Below are positions 511-55,100 of a stretch of DNA of 64,000 bases, piece after piece (positions within the stretch are counted from its first letter, which is position 1; every line of letters starts with the position of its first letter). Source of the DNA: Pocillopora verrucosa (lineage: Eukaryota; Cnidaria; Anthozoa; Scleractinia; Pocilloporidae); assembly GCF_036669915.1 (NCBI RefSeq), contig NC_089319.1, positions 23,392,524 to 23,456,523 of the forward strand, in the 5' to 3' direction. Under the pieces are notes generated by a model. That model was not told where the DNA came from. It did not search any database and was given only the letters and a program-made list of their open reading frames with translations. Made by a program: the position numbers and the translations under genes.

Positions 511-3500
511 TTAAAAGGCTGTATCCATGTTCCCGTAAGTGTGTTCGTCGGTGGCCTCTACACTTGGTTTACGACCGGGATTTTCTAGGGAGGTATCCTT
601 GTCTGGCAGGTCGAGAGGAATCTGGGAATTATTTACTTTGGGCTGTTCGTTCTGGTATATGGCTTGTCCTGGTTGACCATGCTGCATGGCAGGCTCTTTA
701 TATGTACCATTCTTGGTAGGAATGACGTTAACGAAAGTAGTAATGGAGGTCTGATAAAATGGGAAGGGAATCTTTCTCTCTTCTGACGGTATTTCCCAGC
801 CGTTCCCGTAACTTTCCACTGGGTAGGCAGGCTCACCGTGTTTAGGAATGTCAAGTCCTATCACAAATCAAGTATCAGTCTATTAGTTATAGAATCGCTT
901 GAAATTGTTCTTATGGATGTCACGATGAGGGTAAGATGCACGCCATCCCAAAGAACAACTGCGATGGAGACTCTGTCAATTCCATGACAGTTCTATCGGA
1001 AACTGATGTTGCTTTAGCAAAAGTAGATTGCAGGCCCAAACCGCCATCTTTGCCTTTTTAACATTTATAGAATTAGACAAATTTATCAGACCTAAAAAAT
1101 GCAAGAGGTATGTAAACTTCCTTTCAGAACTTTTCTTTTCAGATGTTTCTAGTCTAAGTAGATCCTCAGAGAGGATGGAGCATGTAGCGGTTGAGACTGA
1201 GGTGCCAGAGTATTGATCTGTGTGAGAATGCGTACACGCTAGAAGTAAACAGACCGTGTGAGATCTTTGAACAGGAGAAGTGCCAGGGTTCAAAGGTCAC
1301 TGGACATTTACTATGTTACCTACCTTTTATCTCGACTTCTTTGCTTACACGAAGCTGTCCGAGAAGTTTCAAAAGAAAGAAAAATGAGAAAGCCAGAACT
1401 GCGCACCAGGCCATGATGACAACTAAACCCAGCACGTTCCAGCCAAACAAACGGAATGAATGGTTGTCCCTGGCATAAAAGATGCCAGTTTTCATGTTAA
1501 AGATGGGGGCTGCTAGCACTCCCCAAATACCACCGCCAAGATGAACTGTAGAGAATAAAGAAAGCGACTAATAAGTTTTTTCCTCCTTAAATCAAGAAAA
1601 GGAGTCTCACGCTGTGATTTGTTTGGAAACTCAGGCATCTCTTTTAACCACTCCAGGTCAAAACTAAAGCCAGTTGCGATCAATCTCGGATTTCATTTGG
1701 CCGTTGTTAGTACTTCGGTTGGGGTTTTACGACACTGAATCGAAGAACACTCTCAAAACTGGAACTAACCAACCCTGTTTCGTAAGTTTTGCTTGAGTAA
1801 ACTTTTCACGAAGCATCACATTCGTAATCCGTCGAAACATTCAAGCAACACTTAAGGTGTACGTCACCGATAATTCCCGTAACAACTTACACTTTGAGTC
1901 TGAAGTTGTTTAAGGGAGATCTCTTCTGTCTTTTGCGTGGCTTGATCCTCTCATAGTTTGATGTTGTTCAATTTCTCTTACTTACCAGCCACAGCATCCA
2001 AGGGATCGTCAATCTGAAAACGCAGCATCGCAATACTCCAAGCAACGTAAGTGATTCCTCCGATAATGCCAATGACAAAAGCAGCATAAGGATGAAAGGT
2101 ATTACAGCCTGAACACTGGGAAACCTGTTTTGAAAAACCAAAGTTAGAACTAAGTGCATAAGAGGTCTGTATTTACCACAGATTTTATGAATAGGAGAAG
2201 TTTTCAGGGAAATGCAGTGGACTAATATTCAGCTCGTTGGACTCCGGCTTCTAGCTTTGCCCAGGGTTAAAAGGGTAATTGGGTATTACCGAACTGGGAT
2301 CAATTGTGAGAGGGAGAAGGGGGGGGGGGGGGGGTTGAGAAATGACACTAACCAGAACTGGAATCCGATACACATGATAGCAGCAGTGTGACTGATGATC
2401 GTGTTCGCCGATTTTCAAGCCCAAAACATGACTCATCAGATCGAAAGTATTTTTCTTACCATTCCAGTAAATCCACCGTTCATGGTGAATAACAGACTCC
2501 AGTGTTTTTCTGCAAAGCCCAGACGTTTGATGATCAAGGAAGTCAGTGCACCTGCAGCTCCTAAAAATTGAAGGATGACCTGATCGATTTATTTAATTCA
2601 TATCACAAATCACAGAAGAATTGGTAAAGAAAACACATTTTAAATGTGATGCTATTGACATTTACCTCCAATGACAGTGTTGACAATTACCAGTGACACA
2701 TCATTGGCAGCGCCCTCACCAGCAATGGCTGCATTAGAGCCGCCATTGAATGCCAGGAAACCAAAGAACAGGATGAATCCTCCCAAAGCTGCTTTCTACA
2801 AGTGTAACAAAAATGATTTTTTAAATCTTTCAGCTCCCTGCAAAATGAAGGCGCCAGCATCTATCTGCATTTTCTAGGCCAGGTAATGGCAAATAATATC
2901 AGGTTGAGTACTTACAGGAACAGTATGGCCTTTCAGTGGCATAGGGACACCATTGACAAATCTTCCGATTCTTGGTCCAACAATGGCTGCCCCGACCAAG
3001 GCAACCAGGCCACTAACAGTGTGAACAGCTCCACTTCCAGCAAAGTCCTACCATAAAAAGTATTACAAAACTATCAATATTTTCAATGAGATGTACAGAA
3101 CGAGTCGCAGATATGTACAAATATAGGTATATTGACTTTGTATCTCAAGTATCTCAAAGTTAACCCTTTTCATCTGGAACACTGGCTTACAAGGTGCAGT
3201 AAAACTTTGAGCCACTCAGCGGAGTCCTTGACCTTGAAAAAAGAGTCTAAATAGACGTTCGCGAAGATTGCTGACACTTGTTTAACATGGCATCATTATC
3301 AAATAATTTATTCCCCTCAGAAACGTAAATCATTTTACAGTAAAGTAAACTAGTACGGAAATTTGGTGATCCACGAACAGCATCATATTACCAGGTATAT
3401 AACATTCATATTACATGGTATATAACAGTCATGTTACGTGGTATGTGACAGACATATTACCTGGTATGTAACAGTCATATTACCTAGTGTATAACATTAA

Positions 3501-6500
3501 TAATACCTAGTATATAACATTCATATTACCTGGTATATAACAGTCATGTTATGTGGTGTATAACAGTCATATTACCTGGAATGTAACAGTTCTTGTAACA
3601 TTGTCTTTCGTGTACTCTGCACCAATGAACAGCCAACCATTTACATCCCAAGCCCAGTGACTTACTACTGGATACAAAAAACCTGCAAGAGAGCGAGCAC
3701 TTCATTGTTGTAAATTCAATACAAGTGAACTGATGAGGGAATTAGTATTTACATAAAGACAATTAAACCACAAGAGTTAAAATACTCGTAGTCAATATAT
3801 TAGGAATTATTAATCAGTAAGAACTGACTTTTTCGAATGATTGCCTTTCATCTGAGGATAACTTACCTGTCAAAAACACAGAGTACATCAGATAAGCCTT
3901 AAACTCAGTTCTCTCTGCTAAAGAACCGCTGACAATCGTTGCTGTCGAAGCCGCAAAAACGTAATGAAAAAACCAATGGGAGAATTTTTCAGCTGGTAAA
4001 TCTGCCAGCGCGAAATAGCTGTATCCAATGAAGCCATTGCCTTTTTCTCCAAACCCAAAGGCGTAGCCAAACAACCAGTAAGCCACTGCACCAATAACTG
4101 TAACAATCGAAACGAGACAGAAAATTAATAGCAGGCATAACTTTACTAACGCCAAAGGCCGGGATAATTCTTTAATCAGTGATAGCAATTGTTGCTACGC
4201 AATCCGTTACTTTAGTGTAAGGGACTGGAAACTGAATTGGTAGAAGGATTAATCAGCACGTGATTAACCATTTGTACTTACACGCGTCCAAGAAATTCTT
4301 GAGCAGGATGTTTGTTGTGTTCTTCGATCTTACTGCACCGACTTCAAGAAAAGCAAATCCTGCCTGCATAACTGCAAGAAAAAATGCCACAGAATCCAAA
4401 GATAGTTTTTTAACGAAGGACGCCGAAATATTCTCTCTCCCTTGTTTCGTTCCAAAAGCTACTCAATAGAAAAACATAAGGAATTACTAAACTAAACTAT
4501 CTTAATGGTGCATTTTTTGGGCCGTTTCAGGAATTTGTGATCGTCTCGGCTGGGTTGTTAAAAGCGAGATTTGTTGTAATCCGGTGTCAATCCTAGTATC
4601 CGTAGAATTTTTGTATGTAGCTAACCTCTCAGTGATATGGAGGCTAAGGGCTTACTTTCAAAACATCAGCTTTAGAAACTCTTTACGGTGGCCAATTTAC
4701 ATTATTAACTCAGTCAATAAAAACAAACTTATGTCACAGTTATAATTAATATTGTTTCGAAATCACGGCCTTAATTTGACTGAAAAAACGAGGAGCGAGG
4801 AGGCGGGATTACCCAGAGAGGATAGTAACATCACGTTTTTATTTGTTCATAATTTGTCTGCGTGCAGCCCAGCCTGAAAAAAAAAACCCAAGAAGACAGG
4901 TCTTGAACGGCGATGATAGCGATAAATGTTCATTTGTTCGTTATGTTGGAAAAAAAGGTGTGCAGTAGTGGTCGCCCCCTATCTACTCTAAGGTAAGATT
5001 GCACTGCTGAGATATTCATGACTCGTCACGTTTTGCCTTTGCTATGCCCGTGCTATTCACCCGTCAAACAATATCTACTTGAGTTTGTAGAAGGCAATGC
5101 GTCAAAGATCAAGTAAAACAATATAAAAGTGCTTAGTTGTAGCTGGTAACATCGTCGTTTAGATTATAATTAGAACTTCTACCAATATTCTGTCTGAATT
5201 GTTCGCATATATAATTATTTTGCGTTTTTTTTTCTTAATTCACTTGAATCCGACAGTGCTTCAGCAACGGTTTCAGTCCTTTGTAATAGCACTTCGTTTG
5301 CCGCTATGTTACACAGAAATGATGTTGCGACAATTTGGTTGAGGCCAGCTCGTTAAAGAAGGTACAGTCACCAATTTGTCTCAAACCGTTATATGATGAG
5401 CCTAACCGTAAACATAGAGAAAACATTCGAGATATTCATGGGATGCAGTTTAATGACACTGACATTGTTCGATAGGAAATCAGTTAGGGTTGAGATGCGA
5501 GGCGGTGGTTTCCAAATATTTATAAAAATTTCAGTTCGAGTTTGATGATATGAAAACTACCAGATATCAATATTAGGTAGACAAAAGTTATTTTTAATGG
5601 TTGAACTGCTAGTAAAATATTTGATTGGTACGAATTATAAACAAAAATTGGTGTTTAAAACGTTTTTAATTTATATGCCAGCTCATTTAGCTCTAACAAT
5701 GAGAGTAGACAATAAGGCAGTATTAAGTGCGCAGTTGACATGCAAAATGTTCTGCCTGCTTAGGGTTATACCTCTGTTCGTTATGTTGCACAGAGAACAA
5801 TTCACCTACATCTCACTTCAGCTGCCTTCTTCTCACAAAATGGCACATAAGATCTGGTTTGGAGCGCACTATTGACATTCGTCTTGAGGTTATTGAGCAA
5901 AGATCGTTATTATCATAAAGAAGAATGTAAAAAACCAGTCTAAAAGAGAGCTCCCTAATTATTTAAGGTCATTGAGCACATAATGAATATCTCATGATAG
6001 GCCAACTGATCGATAAAAACTCTTTAAAAAACATTCCAACTTTGAAACTGTATCAAAAATGTCGATGATTTCCGCAATGGGGTTCCTCAGTTATGAACAA
6101 ATAAACGCAAATCAAAGTAAATAAGTTTTCTCTACTAACGTGAGAGGAATCAAAACAACCGTAAGAGTACGTGACGAAGTCACGGCACAGAGTATTGATT
6201 GAGAAGGATTAATGTAGACAAAACTTTCCGGATTGACTTTGTTAAAGTAGAGCATTTGAATAAATATGATAATTACGATTGGAAGACCGCGAAATTATCC
6301 GGACCCTTGCAACTTGGCTTTGATTTAGCGTTTATTCCTCCATTCTCATATCCTAACTACATTGAAATCCTTTCTCACTAATATCAAAATTGTCGGTGTT
6401 TTTTAAAACTGCCTTTTCTCTCAGAAAAGAACATTCCTATAGAGAGTCGCAACTCTAAATGTGAAGACGAACTAAAAAATCTCAGAGCCACTCAAACATA

Positions 6501-6875: not shown

Positions 6876-9155
6876 CACTTCATGGCTAAGGGAGTCGCAA
6901 ATTGTTTTCCTTTGTCAGTCCACGTGATTTAAGGATGTTCTTCTTCTTGTGATTGGTCTTTCCCTCGCTAGACTTTGACTCTTGAGGTCCTTGGGAACAA
7001 AAAAACCAAAGTCCGAAGAATTAGTCCGACGGAATGACGCATTAGTTGCCATAGATAAATTTTAGACTCGAACTTGTCACCTGTATACTCGGTGGTCCTG
7101 GAGGGTAAAAACAAAAATAACGAATATTGCGACTGACGGAGTCCTGTTTGTACGGAACTCTTCATACATTAAACGCGAGAAAAATCCCCGATAAACTTCA
7201 AGTTATAGTTCAACACGGTAAAAAGCAGTGAGTTTGGATTGCACATTTAGTTTCGCATTTGCGATGCATCCAAAGATCGATTTGTTTAATCATGTGCTGA
7301 TCAGTCTGTTGCGAACTGAGTAACAACGACACGAACACGACAAAAGCTCAACCGCAAGTCACGCGGAACGAGGCTTTGCTGACCGGCTTACGAACTTTGA
7401 AACTTGTCTTATGTTGGCAAAATTGTGAAACTTCAAAGTTTATAGTGAAAGCAGACTGCTCAAATAGTCTGTCTTGTTTCACCTCATCTTCGGTAGAAAA
7501 GTTTGTCAACAATTCATTTACGGAATATGTGTTGCGTAATATGCAATTTGAACAGACCGGCGGAATGCAAGCTATTTTTCTCTGCTAATTATCTAGTGAA
7601 ACATGACCCGAAGCTAGAGCAGTTTCGTTTGGGAAGCAAGAAACTAAAAGTGTTTAAAATTGGAATTTTTCAAACATTTATGGATGTGACTCCTTGTGAA
7701 CATTGTTCACGAAAACATCCGTTCACGTAAATTCCATATGTCTCTCACGAGGAGGAGGCTGCCGACGCATTTTCGTAAACAAATTGTAGCGAATTGTTAA
7801 TCAGATACTAATGGCTATCCTGACACATCAGGTTGGATTATTTGACCGACGGAAAGCCCCAAAAGAAACTTTGCTGTGTCTTAGAAAGCTTTACAATATC
7901 ACTATGAAAATAATAATTCATGTTTTCAATGAAGTAAATACAATTTGTCAAGTTTTATCTTTTTTATCTTGAGCAGTTCAAAGGGCCCTGCCATATAGAA
8001 AGTTAACATCCTGAAAAGTGCACAACTTTCGCTTTACTAAACCCTAAACCTGGCTGGTTTTAAAGGGGAGAGTGATAAGTATTGAAGGAAAATAATCGAC
8101 TCAAAATTTCTCCTTATCCGGTAGGAGGTGGAATACTATTAGGGGACGCGTAGGAGCACGTACAAAATTAGCATGAGAATTAACGGTAAGTTGAGAACAG
8201 AAAAATAGTTTGATTAACACTAACAAGCAGTAAAGAATTAAGGAAGGTTGGTTGACTTTATTTCGACCATGGAGTCATACACTTAGGGAGAACCCGAATA
8301 ACATTTTTGTAAGAGCTTGTTTATTTGATATACAAGTACAAAAAAAATCTTCCCTCAGCTTGATCTTGTGTGACCCTTGCAATACCGAGATTTCGGTGAA
8401 ATCTTACCTTTTATCTTGTTTGACTAAGGGAAGGCTATTACTTTGTTTTCGCTTGGACCATACTAAGTCCTTTAGAGCGACAAAACGAAAACCACAAAAT
8501 AACATCTGCATCCACATCTTAATCATAAACTCACTTACAAGAATCTCTCCATTTCTTCACCCCTGACACCTTGAAATTTTTCTGTTTTCCCTGACCTCCT
8601 CTATAACTACGACAATCTTTAAAACAACCTTAATATAACTTCTATTGCATTCCACCCCTCGCGCACATCACACGATCCAACTCTAACAAATTCACACCAA
8701 AATTTGACAAAGCATGCAAAATTGAGTCATTAGAATATTACCATCGGCCCAAACTTTCACATTGTAAAACCTTGATACTTTTCGAGACCAAATTCTTTTA
8801 ACTACTAAAATATCGCTCATTATCCTTTTTATGAGGTAGAAATCTTAATATAATTGATATATTACTTTCTTATTGTATGTCCATGTACAATAATCAATTT
8901 TAAACATGTATATTAACATAATTTCAAGAAAAGCATTAAAAAGTATAGAAACGAGAGCGTTTTTTATACTGTCTACATACACGGGAACAAGAAAAAAGTC
9001 ACACATTAACAAATTCTGTAAATCTTATAAAAAATTTTGATCTTGACAATTATTATAACTTCCTTAGAGTATTCATATAACTTACTTTTCTATACGTAAA
9101 TTGGTGCTAGAAGTATATCATTCTTATACATCTATATGTCAGATAATGGTGGTCT
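6876..9155. other. Intergenic: AMT upstream region and choline kinase 3' flank
   Basis: No protein-coding exon, tRNA or clear mobile element is visible. The part nearest AMT (6876-7300) is its presumed promoter region. From about 8560 to 9150 the sequence becomes very AT-rich and probably includes the 3' UTR of the minus-strand kinase gene. Short open frames at 7376-7730 and 8252-8566 have no recognisable motifs or splice context. Confidence 0.5.
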
Positions 9156-12100: not shown

Positions 12101-15100
12101 ATTATGAATGAACAATTTCATGTCACAAAGTGAAAAAAAGTGGAACAGGAGCACTAGGATGTTTGTCAATTGGATGTCTGTCCCTGTTTTCCAACACAGT
12201 TTGTCAGCTCGAAGATAATAGTGTCAAGGCAGCTGAGAGGTGTTTCTGTTCTGCTAAATTTATTTGACCTTCCTCATAAAAAATGTGGGGCTCTAGAATA
12301 TCTTTAAGTAAGTAATTATGTAACTTGTTACCTTAAAAAATCATATTCTTTTTTTAAATCTATACTTTTGAGTTTGGCCAACTTCACAGCTTTATCTTGT
12401 TCATTAAAATGTGTTTGCAAAGCTTCTTTGCTCCATCTGCCAAATTACAAACAAACTCCAGTTAATTCTCTTGAAATAAGTAAATGAAACCAACAGAAGT
12501 CTAGCTGTAAATACCTTAACCCTCTGACCCCTCAAGTGACTAACACCTAATGTCTCCTAACAATATCAACCCTGAAACACATTAACTAAAGGTCACAAGA
12601 ATAGAGGAAATGATCAACAACTAAAGAAGCTATTGATATTCTCCTTGTCAGCACCTTAGGAAATGTATAGAATACAGTATAGAGAATATGATTAATGATA
12701 TTAAGGAGTAAAGGGTTAACCATAAATAAATATAAATTAAAAAACACTGCTGATTTTGATGCAAAGCAAAATTCTTACTCAGATATTGTGTTCCATAAAT
12801 AATCTGGATCCTTGCAGAGGGGTAGTTGTAATTGATGATACTCCGCCGTTTTCTGTGCAATTCTCACTGACAATTCAGGTTTTGCCAGATCCTCTCTTGC
12901 AAGACTTTTTGCCTATGTATATAAAAAAAATTATCTGAATACAATATAATCCTCCACTGACTTTCTTTTTCCAGTGTCTTAAACTGGTTTGTGGTTCTTG
13001 ACTGTTTCAATAATCCTACCTAAGATGGATGAGCTCAAGTAAAAAACAATTAAAATACAAACCACTGACCATAATACACAACTGTTATCTAAGAAATTCT
13101 GACCCCATCAATTACAGCCAGCCTCTACAAATACAATTCTTGAGTATTTGGGAAAATTATTTATCTCTTTCTGCAAAATTTACTGCCTTTTTTTTTAAAC
13201 ACGAGAACTCTCTCTTTCTCAAGGAACTTCTTCTTTCTCACAAAATTAATTTATATTTTTCCTCCAACTTCAAAACATCATGGAATAAATTTGGTCTTTT
13301 TATAATTTGTACAACAAAGCAGCCACATATGCTCCCAAAATCCATAAAAAATGAAACTTAACCTTGAGTAGTATATAGAATGAGCCTATTTAGATTGTAT
13401 ATTTGGTTTACCATTTTCAGATCATGTAATAAGGCCCTATCTAGAGATATGTTTCTTTCCAAATTCTTTTTATTCACCTACTTAATATGTGTGCATGATT
13501 TACAAAAGATAAATCTGGGAATTCTCTTGAGACCTGAAATGGGTAAACAAGTGGTAGGCTTGTATTAAGACACAGGTGATAGACAGTAGATGTAAGAAGT
13601 GATGAAGATTTGTATAAAATACATTTGATCTGCATTTAATGCATGTACTTGCCTTGTTGCTAGAAGTATTCTGAAAAGCCAGTTTTCCTACATTAGGTGG
13701 CCCATCATGGCAAAAAATAGCGTTTTTTACTGTTTTTCATTATACCCCTATTCTGTGGAAACTACATAAAGCTGTCAACTCATATTACGCAGTAACCCTG
13801 CCATTCCCCATGAGCAACTGCTCATTACAAGTTGATTGCAGTAACAGAACATCCTGGAAAAGAAAGATTTCGTGTGACATTCGCATGATTGCATGACATT
13901 TTGAGTTTCTGATCATGTTCCATCACAAAATCTCTCATCTACCATCTACCGTCTATTGTCTACTGTCTCCTGTCTATCATCCATTGTCCATCAGCTATTG
14001 TATATCTTCTATCAACTATCGACTATTGTCTATCATCTATCGTCTATCGTCTATCATCTATCATCTATCATCTATTATCTATCATCTATCCTCTATCATC
14101 TACTGTCTACAGTCTATCATAGGTCCATGTGATTGTCAAAACTGCCCCACCACATAAATTTCTTGCTCTATAGATAAGCTATCTATTTTAACACTAACCA
14201 TAAGTAATTCCTCCAATCTACCCTCAGGAAATATAGCAAAAAGCTTTGGTCCAATATTCCATTCTGAAAGCAAGGCAAAAACAACCGAATCTGCAATTAG
14301 GCAACCAATACTTGTGACAAGTTCATCGTACAGCGGACCATAGATGCGCAAGACAACTTTTCTCCTCTCTTCTTTCCCAACTCCATAACTTTCGGGGAGG
14401 GAACAAATGTATAACTTGTTGCTCAGGCCACCTCTAAAAAAAAAGCACATCATTTCATGCCATGATATACATACATACATACACACACACATATATATGT
14501 ATACATACATACATACGTTTATTGCAACTCCCAAGCTGGGTTTTTCAGTTACAAAACCTACATTAAAATTATTGTAATATTATAGTAACATTGTATTGGC
14601 CTAAAAATATATATAAGTGAAAACTAAGGCTAGTATAATATAAATACAAAAGGCCAGTATACGTTAAAAACACTAGTGAACTAAAACAAAAATTAGACAA
14701 GAATAGAAGATTGAAATGATTCATCTGTGTGTGACATTTCCAGTGAGGAGCGCATTCGGTAGGCGGAGCCTAAAGGCCTTTACATTCTCAGCTGCTTTTA
14801 AGTCATTTGGGAGGTTATTCCACAATTTGCATCCGCGATATGTGAATGCACATTGCCCAGAGGACAGGTGGCATCGTGGGATGTGGAGCAGATTACATGA
14901 TCTTGTTACCCTACTATGAATATGAGATCGTGGGACAAACATGTTAGCCAGATATTCAGGAACTAAATTATTTACACATTTAAATACCATTACAGCATTG
15001 TTAAAATAAAGTCTCTCCTCAACAGTGAGCCAATTAAGAGATTTTATGCCTTGGGAGATGTGGTCAAATTTCTTAAAACCTAATACAATACAAAGTTCTG

Positions 15101-16129
15101 CACTAGCTGAAGCTTCTTTATATTTCTTTGAGATGTGTTAGCCCATACAGTTGAACAATAATATATTGTACTAAAAACAAAAGCGTTCATCAAAAGTAAA
15201 AGGGTTTTCCTGTCCAAGAGGTGTTTAATCCTGCTAATCGGTACTAGTTTGAAAATACAGTTAGAAGTAGTTTTAGCAACATGATCGTTATATGTTAAGG
15301 ACTGGTCGATGTAGACTCCAAGGAGAGCTGAAGAGCTTTGCAGCACCCTTTGCTTAAGAAGCCTAGACTGGCTTCGCCAATGTACTTGGTTACACTTAGG
15401 AAAATCTCTCTCGTTAAAAACGTGTAAAAATAAATGCACAATTCAGTTTTAACTAATCAATTCTGGAAGACGATTCCTGTGAATTTACTAATAGTTTGGA
15501 TACAAGTAAACGCATTTGGATTTTCTATAAATAAACAATTATTAAAGTAGCTGGTGTGTATCTTGGAGAGGTTCCACGGGGATGGCTTTATCACAAAGAA
15601 TGTTCAATAATTTATTCACGGCTACGTGCTTCCTTAAACGCACTCGTCGTAAGAACTCCTCTCTCCGTAAAAATGAAAATAATAGACTGCTAACAGATCA
15701 AAAGTAAAGGTGAAGAAAGCAACAATTTTCCTTCTAAATTTAACCAAGAGACGCGTGTAACTTGACCCTCGTTAGACTTCGACCTTTGAATAAAATGTTT
15801 CGCCAAAGACACCAGCTTGTAGCTCCAATACCTCGCCTGTGATCCAGTATGTAATCAATTGTTTTAATATAGGCTTCTTCAACAACCAATAGAGACCGCA
15901 GAATGATTGGATGATTGATTATGCACACACTTACAAATCGGCGTTGGTACTTATTAAAGGAAAGACTTCATAAAAAACAATAGCATAAAAGCTCGTACCC
16001 TAACACTTGAATGGAAAAATCATCTATGGATATGTTTCTCCAGCTTCCTCCTAAGTACTGATTACACCACTGGTGCGCCTTCTTTTTGAAATCAAAGGTA
16101 ATTTCATTGGAAACGCTAGCCATGGACAT
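9156..16129 (-). CDS. Choline/ethanolamine kinase (10 exons, about 378 aa)
   Basis: Cytosolic kinase for the first step of the Kennedy pathway: ATP plus choline (or ethanolamine) gives the phosphobase used for phosphatidylcholine or phosphatidylethanolamine. Exons: 15999-16129, 14199-14433, 12779-12912, 12332-12436, 11768-11832, 11309-11405, 10664-10772, 9753-9856, 9530-9623, 9156-9218; they close in frame at 379 codons. Motifs in order: CNQYLGGSW at the N-terminus, GGLSNKLY nucleotide-binding loop, FPEGRLEE, Brenner's phosphotransferase motif HNDLQQGN (catalytic Asp near residue 220), the choline kinase motif IDFEFSAYNYR (Asp near 247), FDLANHFCEW and FALASHFMWGLW. Length matches the family. 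The start is ATG at 16129 or 16123; an ATG at 16171 would add 14 residues that look unlike the family. I cannot separate CHKA/B from ETNK by eye, but the GGLSN and FEFSAYNYR forms favour the choline kinase branch. Confidence 0.93.
13930..14121. repeat. CTATCAT-type 7-bp minisatellite in kinase intron 2
   Basis: An imperfect array of units of the form CTATCAT/CTATCGT/CTACTGT runs for about 190 bp just downstream of exon 2 of the kinase gene. The core at 14020-14105 is the most regular part. Confidence 0.85.
14467..14518 (-). repeat. CATA/CA/TA microsatellite forming the LINE 3' tail
   Basis: On the minus strand the LINE 3' UTR ends in GGGAGTTGCAATAAACGT and runs directly into ATGT repeats, then TA and GT repeats. 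Simple-repeat tails of this kind mark the 3' end of many CR1/L2-type elements. The tract stops about 33 bp before the splice acceptor of kinase exon 2. Confidence 0.75.
14519..15440 (-). mobile_element. 5'-truncated non-LTR retrotransposon (LINE) fragment, CR1/L2-like
   Basis: The minus strand encodes the C-terminal part of a LINE reverse transcriptase. One block (about 15340-15080) contains LLGVYIDQSLTYNDHV, YYCSTVWA and IKKLQLVQNF. The next (14990-14721), in a different frame, contains the end-domain pattern FTYRGCKLWNNLP followed by FRLRLPNALL. The break between the blocks is a frameshift or small deletion, so the copy is dead. It is followed by about 200 bp of presumed 3' UTR and an ATGT-type microsatellite tail. 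It sits in kinase intron 1 (14434-15998) in the same orientation as the gene. The subfamily is a guess from the ORF end and tail type. Confidence 0.75.
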
Positions 16130-21465: not shown

Positions 21466-24400
21466 TTATGGATTCAAGATATACATGCGAGCTTCATCTT
21501 TCTTCCTCTTTGGTTTGGGTTCTCCAGTTGCCTCAACAAACTCAGGGATGTACTTTTTTAGTAAAGTATCAAAATACAATTCTAGGTTGTGACCCATTTT
21601 TCCAACTTCAGATGTTGCCTGAAAAAACATAATAAAGTCAGGAAGTCACTAACAGTTCTGCGGGATTTGCAAATAATAAACCCCTCCTCGAAAACTGCAG
21701 TCTAGAAGTAGTTTACCTTACAAAGTAGGTTTTGCGTCAATTCAACTGTATTGGATTTCATATGCTTAGCTTTCATCAACCCATTTGCTTTCTGTTAGCA
21801 TTCACAATTCAATGTACACGTATGCTGTACATATATGCTGAGGTAGTGAAGTGTTAAAACACTTGCCAAGCTTGTCCCTGTTTTCATAGCATGAACTGAC
21901 CAGTGGCATTTCAACTGTCCTTACCTCTCTGGGTGGAATACCACTCCATTAAAATTAAGTAGCTGAGTCATTTCCCTACAGGATTGATGGTACATATTTA
22001 TTCAATTGACTCGCCCTGAGAGCAAATAATTTTTGGACCCCTTAAAGATGAGAGAATGACTTTGCCATAAGTTACTCCTCAATACTCAATAGACACTTAC
22101 CTCATTAAATATTGCACAATTGTCAAAGATTAATCGGCAATCTGCAACAAACTCACTGAAGCTTTGGTAATGAGCAAAGTTTTGAGTTTGAAGCTTGGCA
22201 CGAACATTTGAAAGATCCATTGGCTTTGAAATAACTTTATAGTAATTAGGAACCTTTAAAAGAAATGGCAAAAAGCAAGTTGTGATTTATAGCATGTAGA
22301 AAAAGAAGCATTTGTTTTGAGACAAATTCTCCTTAAACAATGACGAACTGTACAGCCACGTGCATTTACATATCATTTCGGGAGATTAAGGAAAATCTTT
22401 AGTCCCTGAACTTAATGTCATGGTCAGTGGCCTTGACCAAACTCCTAAGGGAGCTGAGCCTATTGTTTTCAGAAAACAAGTGAGAGAAGGAAGGACCAAG
22501 TACCAGTAAGTGAATCTGAGCTCACATCAATGCTTACTTCATTAACCTTCAAAAGTAAAATGCACATAAGTGAAATGATCACTAGTCTTGGGTCTGCTTC
22601 ACCAATGTATAAATCTGTCACTTACATCCATCAGTTTCTGAGGCAAGGTAAATATTTTGACAAGGCGACTAGAAAACAGGTTATTTATCAATTACTTTGA
22701 GTTATAAATAATCTATGTGTAGGTAAAATAATTGCACTAACCGATTTACTGACTCGTTGTTGAAATGGAATACTTTCTGCATGACAATACAGCTCTAGAA
22801 GAATCTTTTCACAAGCCTGAATGACAAAAAATCTAGTTTACTGGTAAACTCTCACACTGACTGACCAAAAAAAAAAAAAAAAAGGACTGAGCAAACCTCA
22901 AGTTTAACATGGCTTGCAGATTTCTGAAGTTTGACAGCCCCTCTCCCTTCCCCTTTCCCCAGCCCTAGTAATATAATTATCAGTTGAGGAACACTTTAGA
23001 ATAAACAATAAATCTTCATGACCACCTAACAAAGATATGTACTGAAATCTGTAAAGAAAATAATCTTTCAGATCTAAGAAGTTAGCACTTTGACATTCAA
23101 ATTTATTCAGTGGGCCAACAAACCTTGTTACCTTTGGGCATACATAACTGAATAACATAATAAATGCCATGGAAAAAAAAAACAGTTTTGCTAACCATGA
23201 CTGTGAAATAGATTTTGTGAGTGGTACTTTAATTCCACATTTTCCATTCATTCTTCAGCATTACAGTACCTTATAAACCCTTGTTTACTCTACATTTCAA
23301 TGTGTTTGAAAGAGGCTGTGTAGATACAGAAACAGTCCTCTATTACCTAACATGTAGTATTGAGAACTTGCAACCAAAAGAAAAAGTTACCTTTCTCTCA
23401 TACTCAGTCAGACCACTGCAAGATGATCGTCTTTTATTGCCCGGCTGAACAACTTCTTTATCTTTTTGGCAAAAGATAAAACAAGTTAAATTTCACATTA
23501 AGTAGTGTTTGATTTTCCACCTTCAGGATTGCAAAGTGTACGTCAATTTTGAGCAATTTAAATGCCTTTTATTATACAGGGTGTATTTGTTCATGCATTT
23601 GTAGTGTCTCCAACTACCACAGGTAAGCTTGAAAATACATAACACAACATTTTTTTTTTTTTTAATTTTTTTAATTAACTTTGTGACATTTTTCATACCT
23701 TTCTGTTTTAATGAATTCCAATCAACCAGTTGACATAAACCACAACTCCAAGAATCACTGTTGAAGACAACAAATATTTCCACTTAAATATGTCATTTAG
23801 AGGTTCCCTGGAGAAGTCTTCACCTCAGTGCAGTATCCCTGAGTTCAATGTAACAGTTTAGGGTTTTGCTTTGGGCTGTAGATGTGAACACCTTTTGAGG
23901 GGTCTACTAAGCTGTGTTGAGGTTACAGTACATATCAGGTATAGTAGGTTATCCAGAAAAAGGACTGAACAAGCAGAAAAAACTGACACAGTCTGCACTG
24001 ATGTAGAATGTAAGAGCGCAACCTCTAACTAAGCATGGTAGCGGATCTTCTCAAGATAATTTATGCACACTAAGAGCTTGTAACAAACAAAGCAAATATT
24101 GACATCCTTAGGAACAAACCTTGGAGTAGCAGAAAGGCAAGGCACATGACATTGTAAGTGGTACACTTTAGGGCATGTATCACAACAAAGAAGTTCTCCA
24201 CCATTGCGACACACTGCACACCAATCATCATTTGAGCTGGTCTCATCAATTCCACTCTCTCCACTAGTGGTGTCATCTTGTTGCTGCTGTAGATTGAAAA
24301 TTCAAAACATTGATGGCATCTACATGTCATATCAATAAGAAAGTTGATAAGAATATAAACAGATATGAACTGTGTACCATCAATTTGACCATGGAAGTTT

Positions 24401-27400
24401 CTTATGACATGCAGACTTCTTCCTTCCCTACCTTCTTCATTGATTCGTGACAAGGGGAGAATTCTGTGGGAGATTCTGGCTTTTCCTGCTTGACCTTGAC
24501 TGGTGGTGGGGAGGTTGTCACAGGGGATGCGGCTGGATCAGGGATTCCCTGGGTACTATTACTCCTCTTTCTCACTGGGAGTAGTTTGGGAACTTGGAGA
24601 GGAACTCCAGCATCTAACAATTCTTGAGAACTATGACTTCTCTTTAACACAGGAAGTAATCTTGGCACCTTTGAATCCCCAATTCCAGTTGGAGAGGTTG
24701 GACCTGAAAAATATAAGTTATTTTAAAAACCATCCTAAATTAAATAGGGATATTCCTTCTCTTCATGGATGCAATATTTTTCCATCCCAGGCTACTTACA
24801 GCACAAGGTCAGTTACCAAAACAACTCACCAATATGTCTTAAACTGTCTACATGGGTAGAGGCATATTGGGAGACTACAAGAGTTGAGTATCTTGTCCCA
24901 GACAAAAAAGAGAAAAAAGACACTCTGCAACAATTTTTTTAGTAATATAGTATAAATGTTTTTAGGTTGGCTCACCTTGAAGTACACCACCTCCTTTATT
25001 CACAATTACTAAAAAAAATTATTCATTTTGTGCTTTCCTTAATAAAATATAGAAACCATCTTATTGAAATTATTCAAAATAACATAAATGCATGCAAAAA
25101 AATACTTCTTTTCGACCAGAAACTCAATCTATGTTACAAAATGTTGTTTTCATTACACATAAATAATTTGGCTCTCACACTTCCTTGTAATCCATTCAAA
25201 GTGAAAGCAAGAATTTTCATAGGAAGCCTACAATTAACATATTTCCTAATGACACTTCATATCAAAATTACTTTCTCGTTAGCACTTTAACTATTATGTG
25301 TAATGTGCTGATTACCAATCGTTAATACTATCTTTCACGTGTTTTCAAACCATTAGTTCTTGGCCTTTACAAGTAAAACTAAATCCTGGAGCTTTAGAAT
25401 TTGACCATATTTTGAAGTCTTCTATGCTAGATGGATCTATAACTGCTGTTACTTCACGTCACTCTGCCTGTTTTTATAATTTACATGTCTTGTTAACTTG
25501 TCGATGATGATCTGATGTAGCTGATTCCCTTTTAAGCCATCATATTCACTTTTCAAATTTGTAATCAGTGTCAATTTTCTACATTTTTCATCTTACTGCT
25601 CCCTTCCATTTCTAACTTGACAAAAACAAGCCTTAATAATTCAAAGATCTCCATAAAACTAATGTCAATTGAATCAGATCTAAAACCAATGTCTCAAATA
25701 TAGCTATCCAACTTAAGTTTAACTGTGCAGTTGCAAAAACTGAGAATACAATTGTAATTACTTACATCATGAATATGATTGATGGTAAAAATCACTGCAA
25801 CACTGTAAATATATATAAGTCCAAGTTATAAATTTGTTACAACAGTGTGATCTTATGCTTGGTATATCTAAATCATTGATATCATGCAATGCTTGTGCCT
25901 TATATTGATTCTTCAAGTTATTCTGTCATACATGACAAATATTATAAACACAATAAACAGAGGAATTTTGTAAATATATTCTTGTTTTGTAATGAGGTAA
26001 AAAAACAAAAACAAAAACATATGATTCTGCCACAAGAAATTGAGACTCAAACCTTAGGGTTTTACAGTCTAATGCTTTAACACTGGACTACATGAAAATT
26101 GTGGGTGAATTGTCATGTAAGCCATATTCCACCATGTAGATTTGTTAACAGCCTCTGTCAAACTGCTTGGATCACCAATGTCAAATGCACCATGTACAAA
26201 CAGTTTGTAAATATTTAACAATAAAACCAAATTTGTTGCAGATTTAAATTAATGGCCATGTCAAAATTTTTCAGTGGTCATTATATAAATATTTACCTTT
26301 CATGATCAGGAAAAGGCTATATTGCTGTAATAGTGAAATGCTAAGCTGCTTTATTTGGCTTCAAGAGCCAAGTCATTGTTTTATTTAAAGAAACTGAAAC
26401 AATGCCTTTGAATTTCACTTTCAGGTTCTAAAGTTATAAAGTTTTGGCCATTAACAAGGCTTCTATCTCCAGTTCCCTTTTACATGGTAAAAAGGACTTC
26501 AAACAAATAAACCATTTAAAAAACTTGAAGGAATCTCAGGTGAAAAATTGATGTGGTTCTCATTTTCACTTGATTCCAATCTTATATTTTGCTAATTTTA
26601 ACCAAGCAAATTATTACACCGTAAGATTTAAAAATAACTTGGCTCAAACTGGCTAAGATTTCTTATTTCAGTTGTTAACCACTACAATATAAGGTTCTAT
26701 TCAAGTAAATATGAGAGAAAACTGGAACAAGATATCATCTAATTTATAGGTTTAATCATTCAATGAGTGCACCCAGATCATTTCAAATGTAGCGTATGAC
26801 TTAGTGCCTATTGAGGTATATTTCAGTTTTACAGGAAATATATACTTTTTTCTCATACACCACACACTACTAACTTTTTCTCTTGATCTCATTTTCTTTA
26901 TACAACTGTGCTAGATGTAATTTTATTGTGCTGGAAATTCAAATCAAGTTATGGTTAAAATGATCATTACTTTTTAAAATAAAGGTGAAATTAAGGTTCT
27001 GGTACAATTTTGCCAAACATGAATCAGAATCATGAGAGAAAAAAAAACAGCATCTCTTTGTGTTGAGATGGTGTTTTAATAAAAATAATACAATTGCATG
27101 GATTATGAGGTTTTCACTCTGTGTAACAAGTAAAAATTTTATTATCAAAAAAATAAAAATGTTGTGGAGTCCAGTTATCTTAAAGATTGTCTGGTTATAT
27201 AGTTCTAGACAACTATTGCTAATATTCAGTTCATATAAGGAAACAATTAGAAATCTTAGTAATGATTGCTATTGCATAAGCCACAGGAAAAGGGTAGAGA
27301 CTCCTTTAAATTCAAGAAATTGTAATAAACTGTAATCTGTCAGGATTTGCTCCATAAGTCATAACAATGATACAAATCTGGAACACAAATCTTCCAAATA

Positions 27401-29777
27401 AGTAACAATGCTATGACTTCTGGAAATCCAACGCAAATAAAGATACACATATCCTCTCAAAATGAGATTTTAAGGACATCTGTTTAAACAAAATAAAAAA
27501 TGTCCCACCAAAAAATAGCAGCATTTACATTTAATTTAATTCACCCATTCAACAGTAACTTTAAATCTAAAGAACTGATGATCCATTCCAAATGATTTCA
27601 GAAGATAACACAAACTTCTGTACATGAGAATTGATGTGATTAAATTCTAGAATGTACTAACAGGAACAGGCACATCATAATAAAAAATGAGTCCATTAAA
27701 ATAACTGGGATGACTCCTTCAGGTCTTAACCTTACACACTGACCTTGGAGGACAGGCTTGAACATGCAGCAAGATTTTATTTTAAAAGATAATAAAAAAT
27801 AAGATATAAACCAATTCAAAATGTATGGCATTTGATTCCAAGAACCATAACATTTGACATGAAACAAAGAATCGTGAGAAACTAGCTTTTTCATGAAATA
27901 CTGAAAAATCCAGAGTGATTTTCTGAGCAGTTGAAGGGGCGATACTGTTCATCTCTTTAAAAAAAACTACATTCACATGCTAAATTACCTTTCAAGACTT
28001 GAGTTGATTTCTCACTGGCTACTGGTTGCTCGTCCCAACCATTTTGTTTAAATGAAGAACCTGATGAATCACTAAGCGGTGATGTACTCTGGTGACTATG
28101 GTTGCTTCCAGTGCTGGGTGGTCTGGGTGGAGGAGACTTGATTGCAATTTTACTACCAATATCCTGGAAGTGCCGTAGAGGGAGGGTGTTACCATTTCGA
28201 ACAGAGCGCGGGGGTGACAAGCGTGAGATATTCGACAAGTTACTGACATTTGGGCTCCTCTGTGCAAAAGAAAAGCTATTTGTAGAAATTCCAGTTCCTG
28301 GTTTTACTGTAAGGCTACGTGTTGCAGATGGTAATGACAAGCGAGATACGCCATTTGCTGACACCACACCAACTTTGGTATTCATATTGATGCCTGCACC
28401 AGATGGATGAACTATGGCAGCCTGAAGGGAGGGGTACTTCGTAGAATAGGTCTGGCTTCCAGGAGGTCCTAAACGCTTATTGACAGCTGAAAGAGCTTCA
28501 ATAGGATTGGGTCTTGAAGAACTATTTGAACTGACTGGACGATTTGACATAGCTGTTGATACAGTGCTGTTTGGCAGACCAGTGAAACTACTAGCATTGG
28601 ACAATCCACGAAATGAATTGGTATTAGTTCTGTCAGCTGGAGTCATAACACTTCCAAGTTTACCAATCACAGCACAGAGCTTTTCTGTTTCAACAGAGAA
28701 CTTCAAATCACTATGAGCTACTGGAAGAACATTGTACTTCAAGCTTAACAGATTTTGGATTCTTGAACTTAGCTGTCTTTTGCTATACAACAATCCCATG
28801 TCGCTACCATTCTTTAATACATGTCTGGTGAAGCCATAATTGTGTTGAAGGATCTTCTGCATTAGGCGGAGGTCTTTATTCTGCTTGGACAAAAGTTTGT
28901 GTTTAAAAAGTACAAGTGCTTTTAATTCTTGCAACAGAACGTTCTCTCTTTGTCTGACAGCTTTCACAAGCATCTCCGACGACTTTTTTATTTCAGATAC
29001 AATGGTTTCCTCACGTTCTTGTAAACCTTTCGCCGCTTTTTCAACTTCGCGAATTGAGTCAGTCAAAGGCTGTGCTTGTTCGTACAGTCTATTTAATTGT
29101 CCCCTAAGGTTATCCCTGTAGTTCACTGCTGCCTCTTTTATAAACTGGTATTTATGATCTTTATGTTCAAGAAGTTGACAATCCCTGCAAGTCAATTTTT
29201 CGCAGTTGGCACAGAAGAGTTTAAGGGCTTCTTGAGGGTGAGTGCTACAAAAAATCGGTTTCACGTCCGAGGACTCGGAGTTTTCCAAATACTCGGCCTC
29301 TGATTGAATTTTATGATCCTTCGTTACTCTCACTCGCTGATGAGCAGAAACACAAGCATCACAGAGCCAATCGCTACAGTTCAAACAAAAAGACGAAGCC
29401 GGACTGTTGTCTTCGCATGAGGTGCAGAAACGGTTTATGTTTTCTTGATTTCTTTGCAGTTTTCCCATGTTCTCTAAGACAAACTGGTTATCCAGGAAGC
29501 CTAGTACTCCTTTCGGGGGAACCAAAAACTCTTGACCACAATTTGGACATTTCAGCCTTGGGATCGAATTCGAAGATGTACTGGCTGAGGTCGAAGGGGC
29601 TTTTTCTCGTTGTTGTTCGGCAAAACGTTCCTCCAAGCAATTTAAACAAAAAGAGTGAAGGCAAGGCAAAAGCTTCGGGCTTGTGTCCACCGGCGGCTTT
29701 TTACAAAGCCCACACAGCATAAAGACGGACTCTTCTTCTTGATCATCGGCGTTACCAGTAGCACTTCCTTCGCTCAT
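21466..29777 (-). CDS. TIF1 family TRIM protein, TRIM24/TRIM33-like (8 exons, about 912 aa)
   Basis: Nuclear chromatin reader and probable E3 ligase. Exons: 27989-29777, 24432-24703, 24120-24286, 23699-23757, 23391-23461, 22742-22816, 22101-22253, 21466-21618; phases match and the sum is 913 codons. The large first exon carries a RING finger (residues about 22-86, CGLC to CPNC), B-box 1 (about 115-160), B-box 2 (about 175-215) and a coiled coil to about 320, then a Ser/Pro-rich linker. Later exons give a PHD finger ([14 protein letters not shown] from about residue 709, ending WSCGLC) and a bromodomain ([15 protein letters not shown], acidic-aromatic end with the FDNCAIFNE stretch carrying the acetyl-lysine Asn). 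The PHD finger is split between two exons. Domain order is diagnostic of TIF1; the C-terminal tail is shorter than in vertebrate TRIM33. Vertebrate members repress or tune nuclear receptor and SMAD transcription; the partner here is unknown. Confidence 0.92.
26038..26095 (-). mobile_element. tRNA-derived SINE-like fragment in TIF1 intron 1
   Basis: On the minus strand an A-box-like stretch (TAGTCCAGTGTTAAAGCATT, about 26092-26073) is followed at tRNA spacing by a B-box-like GGTTTGAGTCTCA (26053-26041). The boxes are imperfect and no full cloverleaf is evident, so this fits a SINE head and not a functional tRNA. The rest of this 3.3-kb intron (24704-27988) holds no exon that I can support. Confidence 0.5.
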
Positions 29778-29853
29778 TTTGATACCAAAGGAATCGCCTT
29801 AATTGTCGCGCAAATGGCCCACCAACTATCACCAAATCGTCCGTGCCCTACTC

Positions 29854-40500: not shown

Positions 40501-43090
40501 TCATCTTCTATAATACCAATGGAAAAATCCTTGAGTTATAATGAACATCAAGAGTAAGAGCCAGTCTTTGAACTGAAGAGTAGCAAGATCATCCTGATGA
40601 GAGGAGTAATGGCGACGCAAATCACTTCTAATTGCCCTCATCTGTTGAACACACTCCTTCTGTAGATCTTTGAGTGGCTGGAAAGCTTTCTCAAGAGCTG
40701 CAAGGTCAATGCCTTCCTTAACACTCGAATCATCATCATCATCCTCAATGCTGCTGGAATGTTCAGCTTCAGGATCAGGTGTTGATGCACCTGAGTGGTC
40801 AATGGAACTACGTCGTGATCCCTTTGCTTGGCCGCCACATCGTGATCGACCAGATGAAGGCCGCTTTCGTTTTGAAATTGGCTTCTTGTTATCTGGTTGG
40901 ACACTGAGTAAGCTTGTTGTTCGTACCATGGGTGCTTTGAGGCGATACTGTGTTTTGATGATTCCATCATTTTCATACTCCTTCAGGTCCGTCATTGGAT
41001 CCCAGGGTCTTACACTACAAAAAATAAATGTAGATGAAAGTCGCAAAACTACAACAACAACAAAATATATAAGCCTCATACTCTCTTGTTTGTAGAGAAG
41101 GCTGACAGCATCCAATATAAGATAATGAAATGTTAATCAGATGCTTACTCTCTGTACTTGTAAAGCCATCGGTTGATAGCATTAGGAGCAGTTGGATCAC
41201 GTTCAAACAGTTTAGGAATCCATTCCACTCCATTTTCTCTTCTTTCACGGTGACCTTTCCGCTGTGCCTCCTCAAGAGTGAACTTTTCGTTTGTTGCTTT
41301 TTCCTGACAATTTTGTAGAAAATGGTTGTACACAATGTTAACCTTTATTTTTTCGACTGGTTTACAAGGCAGTAAGAGATTGCACAACTAATTACAAAGT
41401 ATGGTGGAGCAAAAGCATTGCAATGTTGCTCAAGTTCAGCACTTGCCAATTGAAAATTACTGAAACAAGATCTCCCTACCTGATCATTAACTTTAATAGC
41501 ATCACTGACATTTATCCAGAGCCTGTATGTGGAAAAGTAATTTTAAGAGAGCAGTTATACATCATCCAAAGACACAACACCACCATAATGTGACCCCATG
41601 AGTCACCATACAGACATGTTGAAGTAAGAATTATATACTATATCTAAACAAGATATGACATACTTCTCAGATTCAAATTCTCCTTGGGTGTTGTACTCCA
41701 CCAAATGTCTGGGAAGTCTCTGTTCTCGGATTTCAGGAGTTGGGTCCCAAAACAGCTCAGGAAGAGGTTCCACTTCCTGAAGAAAAGAAATAGAAGTCAC
41801 TTTACAACTTCTTAAGTGGTCACAACACTTTTAAAAGGACAGTAATTTGCAGACCATGCTCACTAGACACATGCTCTACACTAGGGAGATGAAGGAAGAG
41901 GTGCAACAGAACCATACGCTTAATAGCAGGTAATTTAGTGTTAACAACTGGGTTGAAAACGTAAATTAGCCACCGTAAAGGATAAAAAAGTTGACGTTTC
42001 GAGCGTTAGCCCTTCGTCAGAGCGATTAGAGGAATTGTGGGTTGTGTGTGGGTTTATATGCAGAAAGTGGAGCTACGCCATTGGTGGGAATATGGTGACG
42101 AGAAAACAGGAATAAATTAGTTGAATGAAAAGCGCTCGTTGGTTCCGTGGGGATTAAGGGTGCCGATTTGGAATATAAATTTTTGTTCTAGTGTTTTACG
42201 GCTTTCCGAACTGCCTTGATGTAAGGAAAGGCCGCAAACTGTCATGTGCTGTTTAGAATGATTAGGAAGATTAAAGTGTCTAGCGACTGGTTTAGATGCG
42301 TCCTTGTCATTTCTTTCCACATCGCGAAGGTGTTCTCGGAATCGGTCACCCAGTCGTCTTCCTCTTTCGCCGATGTATAACTTATTGCAATAAGTGCAAG
42401 TTATACAGTAAATAACATTGGCGGAGGTACACGTAAAGTGATCAATGATCTTAATGGATCTTTTGGGTCCCGATATTTTCTCTACGTTATGAATGAAAGT
42501 ACAAGTTTTGCATCGTGAGCGAGCGCATTTAAAAGTTCCAGATTGGTCATTGGTTTGAAATGAACTCCTGACTAAAAAGTTGACTATGTTTTTGTCACGT
42601 TTGAATGAAATAAGTGGTGGTTGCGAAAAGATAGTGCCAGTCTCTGAATCGTTTTGGAGTAATTTAAAATTTTTAAGAATGATAGATTGAACTGCGTGGT
42701 TGTGAGGGTGAAATGTAAGAGTAAATGGAATGCGGTCAGTGTTTTCCTTCTCGGCCGTTTTTAGTGCTGCCTGTCGATCGATTTGTTGGGCACGGTGGTA
42801 GCCCGCTTGAACGACAGAAACAGGATAGCCACGTTTATCGAAAAACTAGCACATTGCCTCTGATTTTTCGGAAAAATCAGAGTCGTCACTACATAAACGA
42901 CGAAGTCTGAGAAACTGTGAAAAAGGTATGGAGTTCTTGACGTGTGATGGATGTGAAGATGAATACAACAAGTAACTATGTGAATCTGTAGGTTTGTAGT
43001 AAACACTAGTACATAAGCCGTTATGCCGTTAAGCCGGTTTCGTTACGTTTTCAACCCAGTTGTTAACACTAAATTACCTGCTATGCTCTT

Positions 43091-52100: not shown

Positions 52101-55100
52101 AAAGCAAAAAAAGCTACAGACAGCCAATTTAGAACAAAAGGAACAAAATTGGATTCCATAAATTTCAGACATCCTGTTCTGATCAAAACAATTTCCACGG
52201 ATGTTTATTCAATTAAGTCAGATACCCTGTCATCTAGTAAAAGATGTACAGAGAGCTAAATTTGGAAATGAACCTTATAGCAGTGTGCACAACTTTATGG
52301 AAGAAATACTTTAATCAGGCATGTTTAAATCTATTTTTCTTTTGCAATATGTAAGAAGTATTATTCGGAAATTATCTTATCATAATTTGTGAGGAAGTGC
52401 AACTTAAGTGGAAATTTTCTATAGACATAAACTAAATTTATATTTATTTAAAAATATTTTCACCTACTGTACATTCAACTCTGGAAATACACTCAGTATC
52501 AGTCTGGTACACAAACTATATCTTGACACAAAATTTTCATTAAACACTGCAAATTTGTTCAAAGTTATGTATTACAGAGTTCATTAAGAATTTCACCAAT
52601 AAATGTCTCTTCTATCATTTTACACAGAGCACAAACATCAGATACCGAGACAGTTGTAAAACAAATTTGACAACAAAGCAAAAAAAATTGTACATACTCG
52701 TTATGAAAATGTATTTTCATTTACAGCTATACTGTGTTTATCTAATAAATTGAAACAATTACTTTTAAAAACACAATAAATAGCCCTTGGGCATTGCTAG
52801 AAATTTGGGTTTCTTAAAATGCGCTCCCTCTGCAGAGAAATTTGCTATCACTAGTTGTCATTGTTATAAAAATAGTCTTGACATGCCTTTACGTCAGAGT
52901 CACCACTTTCACCTTGAACTTTCCATTTCAAGGTGCAAGCAGGTAATGCAGGGTGAACAAGATTTTGGGATGATTTTTTAGCACATGGTGCAATCATGCA
53001 GGAGAGCTCCTCATTACTCTCTGGCAGAGGTAAGGGGACTTGCTTAATTCTCTTCAATTCCTTGTTCATGATAGCTTTCATTATCATGGCTGACATTGAG
53101 ACCCTTCTACCAGTATTTTGGGGATGACTGTGAGCATATACAACATTGTGGCTATGAGAGAAAAGCTTGAAAAGGACATTTGACACACTCCTACATTCAC
53201 AGAAAAACACCAAACAACTTTGATTGTTTTCATTTCTTTCTACTTAGAGAGCTGGCCTTTTGAGCAATATCATTTTAAATGCTGAATGGGCAACTTGGTA
53301 GAGCAAATGTTTATTGTTTAAGAAACAGTTAACTGTAACTCCCTCACAAACTGTGGACAATTGTTACCATAACATACACCATGTGCTTTGCTATCTGCAG
53401 AAGAGCAAGTTATCTTCTAAACAGTTTGATCTTTAAACAAAACTATATATGAGTTAATTAACAGCAAAAGACACTGTAAATCCTTTTTGATACCCTGCAG
53501 AAACACAAAACTTTCCCAGTGAAGGAGAAGGTGCTGATAACTATGTTCTTGATCTGATCTTATAGCTAAGGTTTGCCAGATTTCTCATTGCTCAGGCTAA
53601 CACACAGATTTTCAGGATTTTAAAAAAAAAAATCATAGAAATTTGAGGCTTAAACCGATCCAAAAATTTATTTGTAGGAAAAGTACAGATAACAAGAAAA
53701 GAAGAGTTTTGAGGCATCAGGCACACTTAAAGAATTGTCTAAGCCTGTAACTTACCCAGTGGACTTGACTGTGTGCTGCGGTCTTCTTCACCATTTTCAA
53801 TGTTAGATTTTCCTCGAGATAAACTTCCCAGTAGAAGTGCTGTGTCAGCTGAAGTGAAAAGAAAAATAACACTATTTTGAGCCACCTCATTTTTTCCAAA
53901 AATAAAAACCACACTAATTGATCTGTTGTTGCATGAATGTCTTATGTTTAGAACCTTTCCGCACTAGCCAAAAGAGTTGTTCATTTAGACAAATTTTCAA
54001 TCACTTGCAACAAAATTTGTCCTGGGTAAAAACTGGACAAAATCAACTAAATAAACAAATCCCTGTGAAACTTGTCTATCATTTGTGGTAAAAGCTACTA
54101 CTGGTGAGTAATTGAACTGAAATCAGATTACTAGAAAGGCAAAAATTGTCTTTTAATGCAAAACTCAGGGATTATAAATTTTTAAGATGATTTAGGATAA
54201 ATCCTTGAAATTGGAGGTGGAATCCTTTGAAAAGCTATTCTGGCCAGTCTTATGAACGAATGACACCGCTGAGACGTTGATGGAATTTGGCAGCTTCAAA
54301 CACTTTTGATGTGGATGCAACAGACAAAACAAAAATTTTGTCACGTCAAAATTTTTTTTTTTTTTAATTTTTTTTGGACAATTCTAGTTTTGTTCACTAG
54401 TGCAGAAAGGCCCTTGGCAAAGTTACATGTTAAATTTTAAGTTACAAGAGCAGGCTGCTTGAATTTTCTTTGAGGTTGCAATGAACCCTTTAGTCTAAGA
54501 TAAGCAAATCTTTAGGTATACAATGCTGTTTTTACCCATCGTGCAGTCTCAAACAATTCAAAGGATAGAAATCAAAGTTTTATGCAAAACTTATGACAAA
54601 ATTTCACAAGAGTAAATGATTAAGTGTCACAAAAACAATCTGCATTCTTCTTGCAAACTACTTTATAATTGAGAAAGGTGTTTTTTGTCTGATCACAAGC
54701 ATGGGACAAAGAAAAACTTTTGAGTCCCCATGAGGAATCAAAACTCAGACCTTTGGATTCAGCACTTCAATGCTCAACTACTGAGCCACAGAGACTACAG
54801 TGAGCAAGGACTATTCCAAAGTTCTTATGACACATCCTGTATACTGCTAGAATCAACAATGTCAATAGCGTCATGTTTGTAAACAGAATAAGAGAGATGG
54901 TTAGTTTTGAGCTCAGTAAAGAAATATATAGATTTCATAGTTCCTTAATCAAAGGAATTATATAATTCCTTTATATACAAAAAAAGGTTTTTTTGCAAAA
55001 CTTATGGCAAAATTTCACAAGAGGAAATGATTAAGTGTGACTATAACAACTTGCATTCTTCTTGCAAACTACATTATAATTCCACTGTGAATATATGAAA

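Follow-up and report, generated by a model that had tools for sequence, protein, structure and literature searches.

In a 64,000-nt stretch of the genome of the coral Pocillopora verrucosa (contig NC_089319.1, positions 23,392,524 to 23,456,523; hereafter the window), a minisatellite of nine 23-nt units straddles an exon–intron boundary of a minus-strand ammonium transporter (AMT) gene. The units are copies of the exon end and its 5′ splice site, and no such array is found in four linked AMT paralogs that have the same intron. The array is a mirage-type minisatellite, a kind already known, and our preferred explanation, with a probability of about 0.75, is that it is mostly neutral for splicing and that the first donor is picked by exon context. 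The proposed origin is a head-to-tail duplication of a segment made up of the final 15 exonic and the initial 8 intronic nucleotides. Slippage or unequal exchange would have extended it, on the intron side only, in a single member of a five-gene AMT cluster once that gene had split from its paralogs. The first, exon-joined donor would still be used, owing to its exon context and its proximity to the upstream 3′ splice site, and the eight copies would be decaying with no selection apparent on them. Transcripts that derive from units 3 or 6, with a stop after TFQVI, would be a minor fraction at most.

Structure of the array and its host gene

Tandem Repeats Finder (TRF) placed the minisatellite at window positions 3383–3590 (period 23, 9.0 copies, 82% match, 0% indels) with a score of 262, whereas 50 rounds of dinucleotide shuffling of the window gave a top score of 69 for periods of at least 10. 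Alignment of the units gave nine head-to-tail copies at 3384–3590 on the minus strand, which confirmed both the unit number and the positions reported in an earlier note made from the sequence alone. The host gene (514–4371) was spliced by hand into nine exons with a single open frame of 499 residues; the first modelled exon starts at 4371 by the AG rule and the frame was computed from 4372, so that the first residue is not real. The product matches the ammonium transporter family (Pfam PF00909, E 1.6e-102). One or more N-terminal exons are missing from this model, in which the array-bearing exon is the third; the earlier note had called it exon 4, and the two numberings do not conflict if one upstream exon is missing. 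The exon (3682–3576) ends ACA TTC CAG and the next begins GAC TTT GCT (T-F-Q | D-F-A-G), with a phase-0 intron of 528 nt (3575–3048) between them. A weak 12-nt internal repeat, seen by eye in the exon ahead of the array (3579–3602; AATGTTACAAGA / ACTGTTACATTC, codons N-V-T-R / T-V-T-F), may have helped the first slippage.

In transcript order, unit 1 (3590–3568) consists of 15 exonic nt (3576–3590, the last exon base being 3576) followed by 8 intronic nt, which form the real 5′ splice site GTAATATG (3568–3575; CAG|GTAAT in short). The other eight units are all intronic. Unit 2 (3545–3567) reads CAC|ATAAC and has lost the GT; unit 3 (3522–3544), CAG|GTAATATG, has a donor identical to the real one, as does unit 6 (3453–3475; CAG|GTAAT), whose 23 positions match those of unit 1 at all but one. 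Units 4 (3499–3521; TAG|GTATT), 5 (3476–3498; TAG|GTAAT), 7 (3430–3452; CAC|GTAAC), 8 (3407–3429; CAT|GTAAT) and 9 (3384–3406; CTG|GTAAT) complete the array, in agreement with the earlier inventory of CAG, TAG, CTG, CAT and CAC before the junction, a dead unit at 3545 and full CAG/GTAAT sites at 3453 and 3522. GT is thus present in eight of the nine units and AG|GT in five. In pairwise comparison the units show 1 to 9 differences over their 23 bases, and changes from the intronic consensus in units 1 to 9 number 2, 4, 0, 4, 3, 1, 5, 1 and 2, with no simple edge effect.

The exon's last 15 nt are identical to the consensus of the intronic units at 13 of 15 positions. Outside the array region, none of the 127,492 other 15-mers in the window reaches this level, which indicates that the overlap of the array with the exon is not due to chance and that, as had been claimed, the units are copies of the genuine exon end and donor.

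The array is younger than its intron

Searches of the genome (353 Mb in 52 contigs, the window being C8:23392524–23456523) revealed four AMT paralogs head to tail on the plus strand at C8:23332125–23379272 (loci L002 to L012). Together with the window gene, which lies inverted at the end, they make up a five-gene cluster. In the second paralog, the search gave no match for the first 27 residues. Each of the four has an intron at the same codon boundary (phase 0, before DFAG); along the cluster, its length is 1506, 181, 129 and 147 nt, and in all four the exon end is conserved (TCTGTTACATACCAG, TCTGTAACATACCAG, ACTGTAGCATACCAG and TCTGTTACATTCCAG). TRF found no array with a period of at least 7 inside these four genes and, when run on the four loci alone, returned only a poly-T run in L003. 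Since the intron is present and the array absent in four of four paralogs, the intron is the older of the two, and the array developed from the exon end in a single gene copy after the split.

Three of the four paralog introns contain no copy of their own donor beyond what single-base shuffles give. In the L002 paralog, a 16/23 match to its own donor lies about 417 nt after that donor in the 1506-nt intron, and 2 of 100 shuffles reach the same score; this weak match is perhaps a chance one, perhaps an old copy. The exon end itself may have changed since the duplications. An A at position −5 is found in all eight intronic units and in three of the four paralogs, whereas the present exon has a T there, like the fourth paralog, and unit 7 carries a T at −15, as do three of the four paralogs. 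The copies may therefore preserve the exon end as it once was, although so few sites give only a hint.

The unit consensus, allowed up to 3 mismatches, matched the whole genome seven times, six of them in the array and one on contig C5, compared with two matches for a reversed control. A dispersed repeat or transposon is thus not supported, within the reach of a pattern that misses units 2, 4 and 7 of the array itself and that diverged copies elsewhere could likewise escape. Nor did the other splice sites of the AMT gene have intronic copies beyond those in shuffles (0 of 7 donors and 0 of 8 acceptors).

Donor strength and the fate of the copies

Donors were scored with a position weight matrix (PWM) of metazoan donor frequencies and by pairing to the 5′ end of U1 (ViennaRNA). 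Over the 11 nt that entered the scores, units 1, 3 and 6 do not differ (PWM 2.42; U1 −8.1 kcal/mol), and sequence strength alone therefore cannot separate the real donor from those of units 3 and 6. The earlier note had reasoned that a genuine donor far stronger than the copies would point to neutrality; no such gap exists, units 1, 3 and 6 being tied. The remaining units are weaker by PWM (unit 9, 0.42; unit 5, 0.01; unit 7, −1.09; unit 8, −1.94; unit 4, −2.80), and unit 2 is without GT. Six of the eight copies are thus weakened or dead as donors, and pairing to U1 is partly kept in five of the eight (−5.1 to −8.1 kcal/mol).

Extension of the exon to any of the eight downstream donors gives TFQVI followed by a stop (8/8), the immediate termination that had been predicted. 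The TGA is the third codon of the extension and sits where unit 1 meets unit 2; it would also end a message with the intron retained. Messages that carry such a stop are expected to undergo nonsense-mediated decay. Low-level poison splicing of this kind is possible.

In the eight intronic units, 10 of 20 changes fall in the nine donor columns, where 7.8 are expected (P(≥10) 0.20), and six of eight copies have an altered donor, where 4.9 are expected (P(≥6) 0.30); the changes were counted by hand from the unit alignment, and these statistics ignore the shared ancestry of the units. There is accordingly neither a sign that the donors of these eight units are being kept nor a significant sign that they are being purged. 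The CAG of the units was also considered as an acceptor or recursive splice site and rejected: judged by the pyrimidine share before the CAG, which is 0.44–0.56 in the nine units and 0.56–0.88 in nine AMT acceptors, the units look like poor acceptors, with overlap at 0.56.

Known boundary repeats and a second case in this genome

In amphioxus, minisatellites termed mirages span exon–intron boundaries of Adh3 and of the globin genes BflGb6 and BflGb9 (Canestro et al. 2002, via PMC3087553). Many but not all of their units contain AG/GT, and length instability, somatic instability and haplotype variation are described; RT-PCR (reverse transcription PCR) together with the Adh3 data led the authors to suggest that regular splicing is not disturbed (PMC3087553). 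The AMT array shares with these the tandem copying of sequence across an exon–intron boundary of a working gene, the occurrence of AG/GT in a good part of the units but not in every one (five of nine) and, with BflGb9, the copying of the 3′ exon boundary. It differs in unit length, 23 nt as against 10–72 bp in Adh3 and 150–160 bp in the globins (PMC3087553), and in that instability is reported for amphioxus, whereas the AMT array is known from one assembly. A further difference is that comparison with the AMT paralogs dates the array to after the intron.

The human IFI6 gene (6-16/G1P3) also contains a minisatellite with donor-like units. Two of its downstream units are used as donors, giving three mRNAs (Turri et al. 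1995, via PMC4526556; also cited in PMC2572611), in contrast to AMT, where each downstream donor would, if used, give a stop. Intron gain from tandem repeats has been proposed for Drosophila (PMC2891723) and for human internal tandem repeats (PMC2812944). Such models likewise start from tandem AG|GT copies, but the AMT intron predates its duplication. No earlier report of the AMT array was found in the titles and abstract openings of open-licence PMC papers.

A base rate was sought in a 200-kb sample of this genome (twenty 10-kb stretches of contigs C1 to C5, with 5,000 N), which contained 29 arrays with a period of at least 10 after overlaps were merged by eye. Four of the 29 contain a donor-like site, and one has three or more donor-like GT. 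The latter, a G-rich 25-nt minisatellite (L029:5548–5694; C5:2005548–2005694), lies beside a frame that by eye resembles a G-protein-coupled receptor; no coding exon end was seen at this array.

By homology, one of the 29 arrays spans an exon boundary; genes in the sample were judged by open frames only, so that other boundary arrays could have been missed. This array (L030:6942–7101, period 74) spans an exon start: the exon, at 7084–7384 (array and exon together, C5:5006942–5007384), is open after TTTACAG ending at 7083 and matches the diacylglycerol kinase accessory domain (PF00609, E 7.9e-8). We take the exon to begin before N-D-L-S-R-V-L, on the basis of the AG and a kinase motif. PDB sequences gave no match to this exon. 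Exon bases 7090–7110 are copied in the intron at 7016–7036 and at 6942–6962 (86% to the latter), and the last 74-nt copy reaches about 20–27 nt into the exon of this diacylglycerol-kinase-like gene, at the acceptor.

At least two boundary-spanning repeats, one at a donor and one at an acceptor, are thus present in about 330 kb of genome examined, with the caveat that the window was picked for one of them. The second array makes the AMT array less exceptional and leaves the odds of the explanations below unchanged; it fits ordinary repeat turnover. The earlier description of a repeat across an exon boundary as unusual consequently needs qualifying, in view of the amphioxus mirages, IFI6 (PMC3087553; PMC4526556) and this second array.

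Weighing the explanations

Several observations weigh against an array that is mostly neutral for splicing. With two copies that score as high as the real donor, leakage to units 3 and 6 is plausible, and none of the other seven modelled AMT donors has a PWM score as low as the real one (others 2.94–8.79). Folding of the pre-mRNA in three windows gave no help, with mean unpaired values of 0.30–0.40 for unit 1, 0.17–0.39 for unit 3 and 0.32–0.41 for unit 6: unit 1 is not singled out as accessible and the copies are not clearly hidden. Masking of the copies by RNA structure, for which this leaves no clear folding pattern, was therefore rejected. Finally, exclusive use of the first donor is inferred. 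It is because sequence strength cannot choose the donor that exon context would have to do so.

Alternatively, the array could be a splicing rheostat in which U1 is contested between the real donor and units 3 and 6, splicing from these two units or retention of the intron leads to a stop and decay, and unit number sets AMT output. The tied donor scores and the TFQVI stop from every downstream donor are as this would require, and the use of downstream repeat units as donors has a published precedent in IFI6 (PMC4526556). However, the copy donors are not conserved, the nearest one (unit 2) being dead; the TGA where these first two units meet would act equally on a retained intron; all four paralogs manage without an array; and splicing appears undisturbed by the amphioxus mirages (PMC3087553). 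The donor competition put forward earlier as a means of tuning thus finds no positive evidence, and we regard a rheostat as unlikely. A length-variable version, in which the number of intact CAG|GTAAT units in an allele (now two of the eight copies) sets the yield of full-length AMT, is decidedly improbable; if true, minisatellite copy number would set ammonium transport in each individual, with the four array-free paralogs staying constant. The copies might also be helpers of the real donor and not its competitors, many weak sites recruiting U1 and so aiding exon recognition. The low PWM score of the real donor and the partial U1 pairing of the copies would suit such a role, but by U1 energy the real donor is mid-range, fourth of the eight (others −6.8 to −12.1 kcal/mol), and paralog donors such as GTAAAA and GTAAAC also lack a G at +5, like the real donor, yet work with no array. 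Reinforcement is accordingly very improbable. Hardly any credence is left for an intron in the making, that is, the birth of an intron out of duplicated proto-splice sites, on the model put forward for amphioxus globins and Drosophila (PMC3087553; PMC2891723). The recurring AG|GT agrees with that model, but the same-position, same-phase intron in four of four array-free paralogs makes the array the younger element, and the idea is refuted for this intron. False repeat copies introduced by assembly deserve equally little, for although repeats are error-prone in assembly, the divergence between units is not that of a stuttered copy and the surrounding gene model is clean.

The array, by the preferred explanation a mostly neutral mirage-type minisatellite, offers a well-controlled natural case: of five linked AMT genes with a shared intron, a single one carries nine copies of the exon end, three with the same donor core. 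It lends itself to the questions of how the spliceosome chooses between equal 5′ splice sites spaced at multiples of 23 nt and of whether boundary arrays are tolerated or used. The case also shows that a boundary repeat can form where an intron has long existed and not only on the way to a new one, and a second example in a small sample hints that the genome may make such repeats often. Apart from these points, the array represents ordinary repeat turnover.

Other features of the window

An Rfam scan of the window found nothing. On the minus strand, exons for a B-box (with a weak RING, under the curated cut-off) and, further on, a PHD finger lie at 24032–29798 and probably belong to a TRIM24/33/66-like gene. 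Two further minus-strand regions had no Pfam match at 0.001: a 242-aa open frame at 42120–42845 that by eye is like a piece of a Penelope-like element or GIY-YIG endonuclease, and open frames at 14724–15442 that by eye are like the decayed end of a non-LTR (long terminal repeat) reverse transcriptase. TRF also reported a diverged 7-nt / 21-nt TCTAYCR repeat of about 25 copies at 13938–14120. Two 93-nt direct copies, 90% identical and 411 apart, occupy 54578–54670 and 54989–55081.

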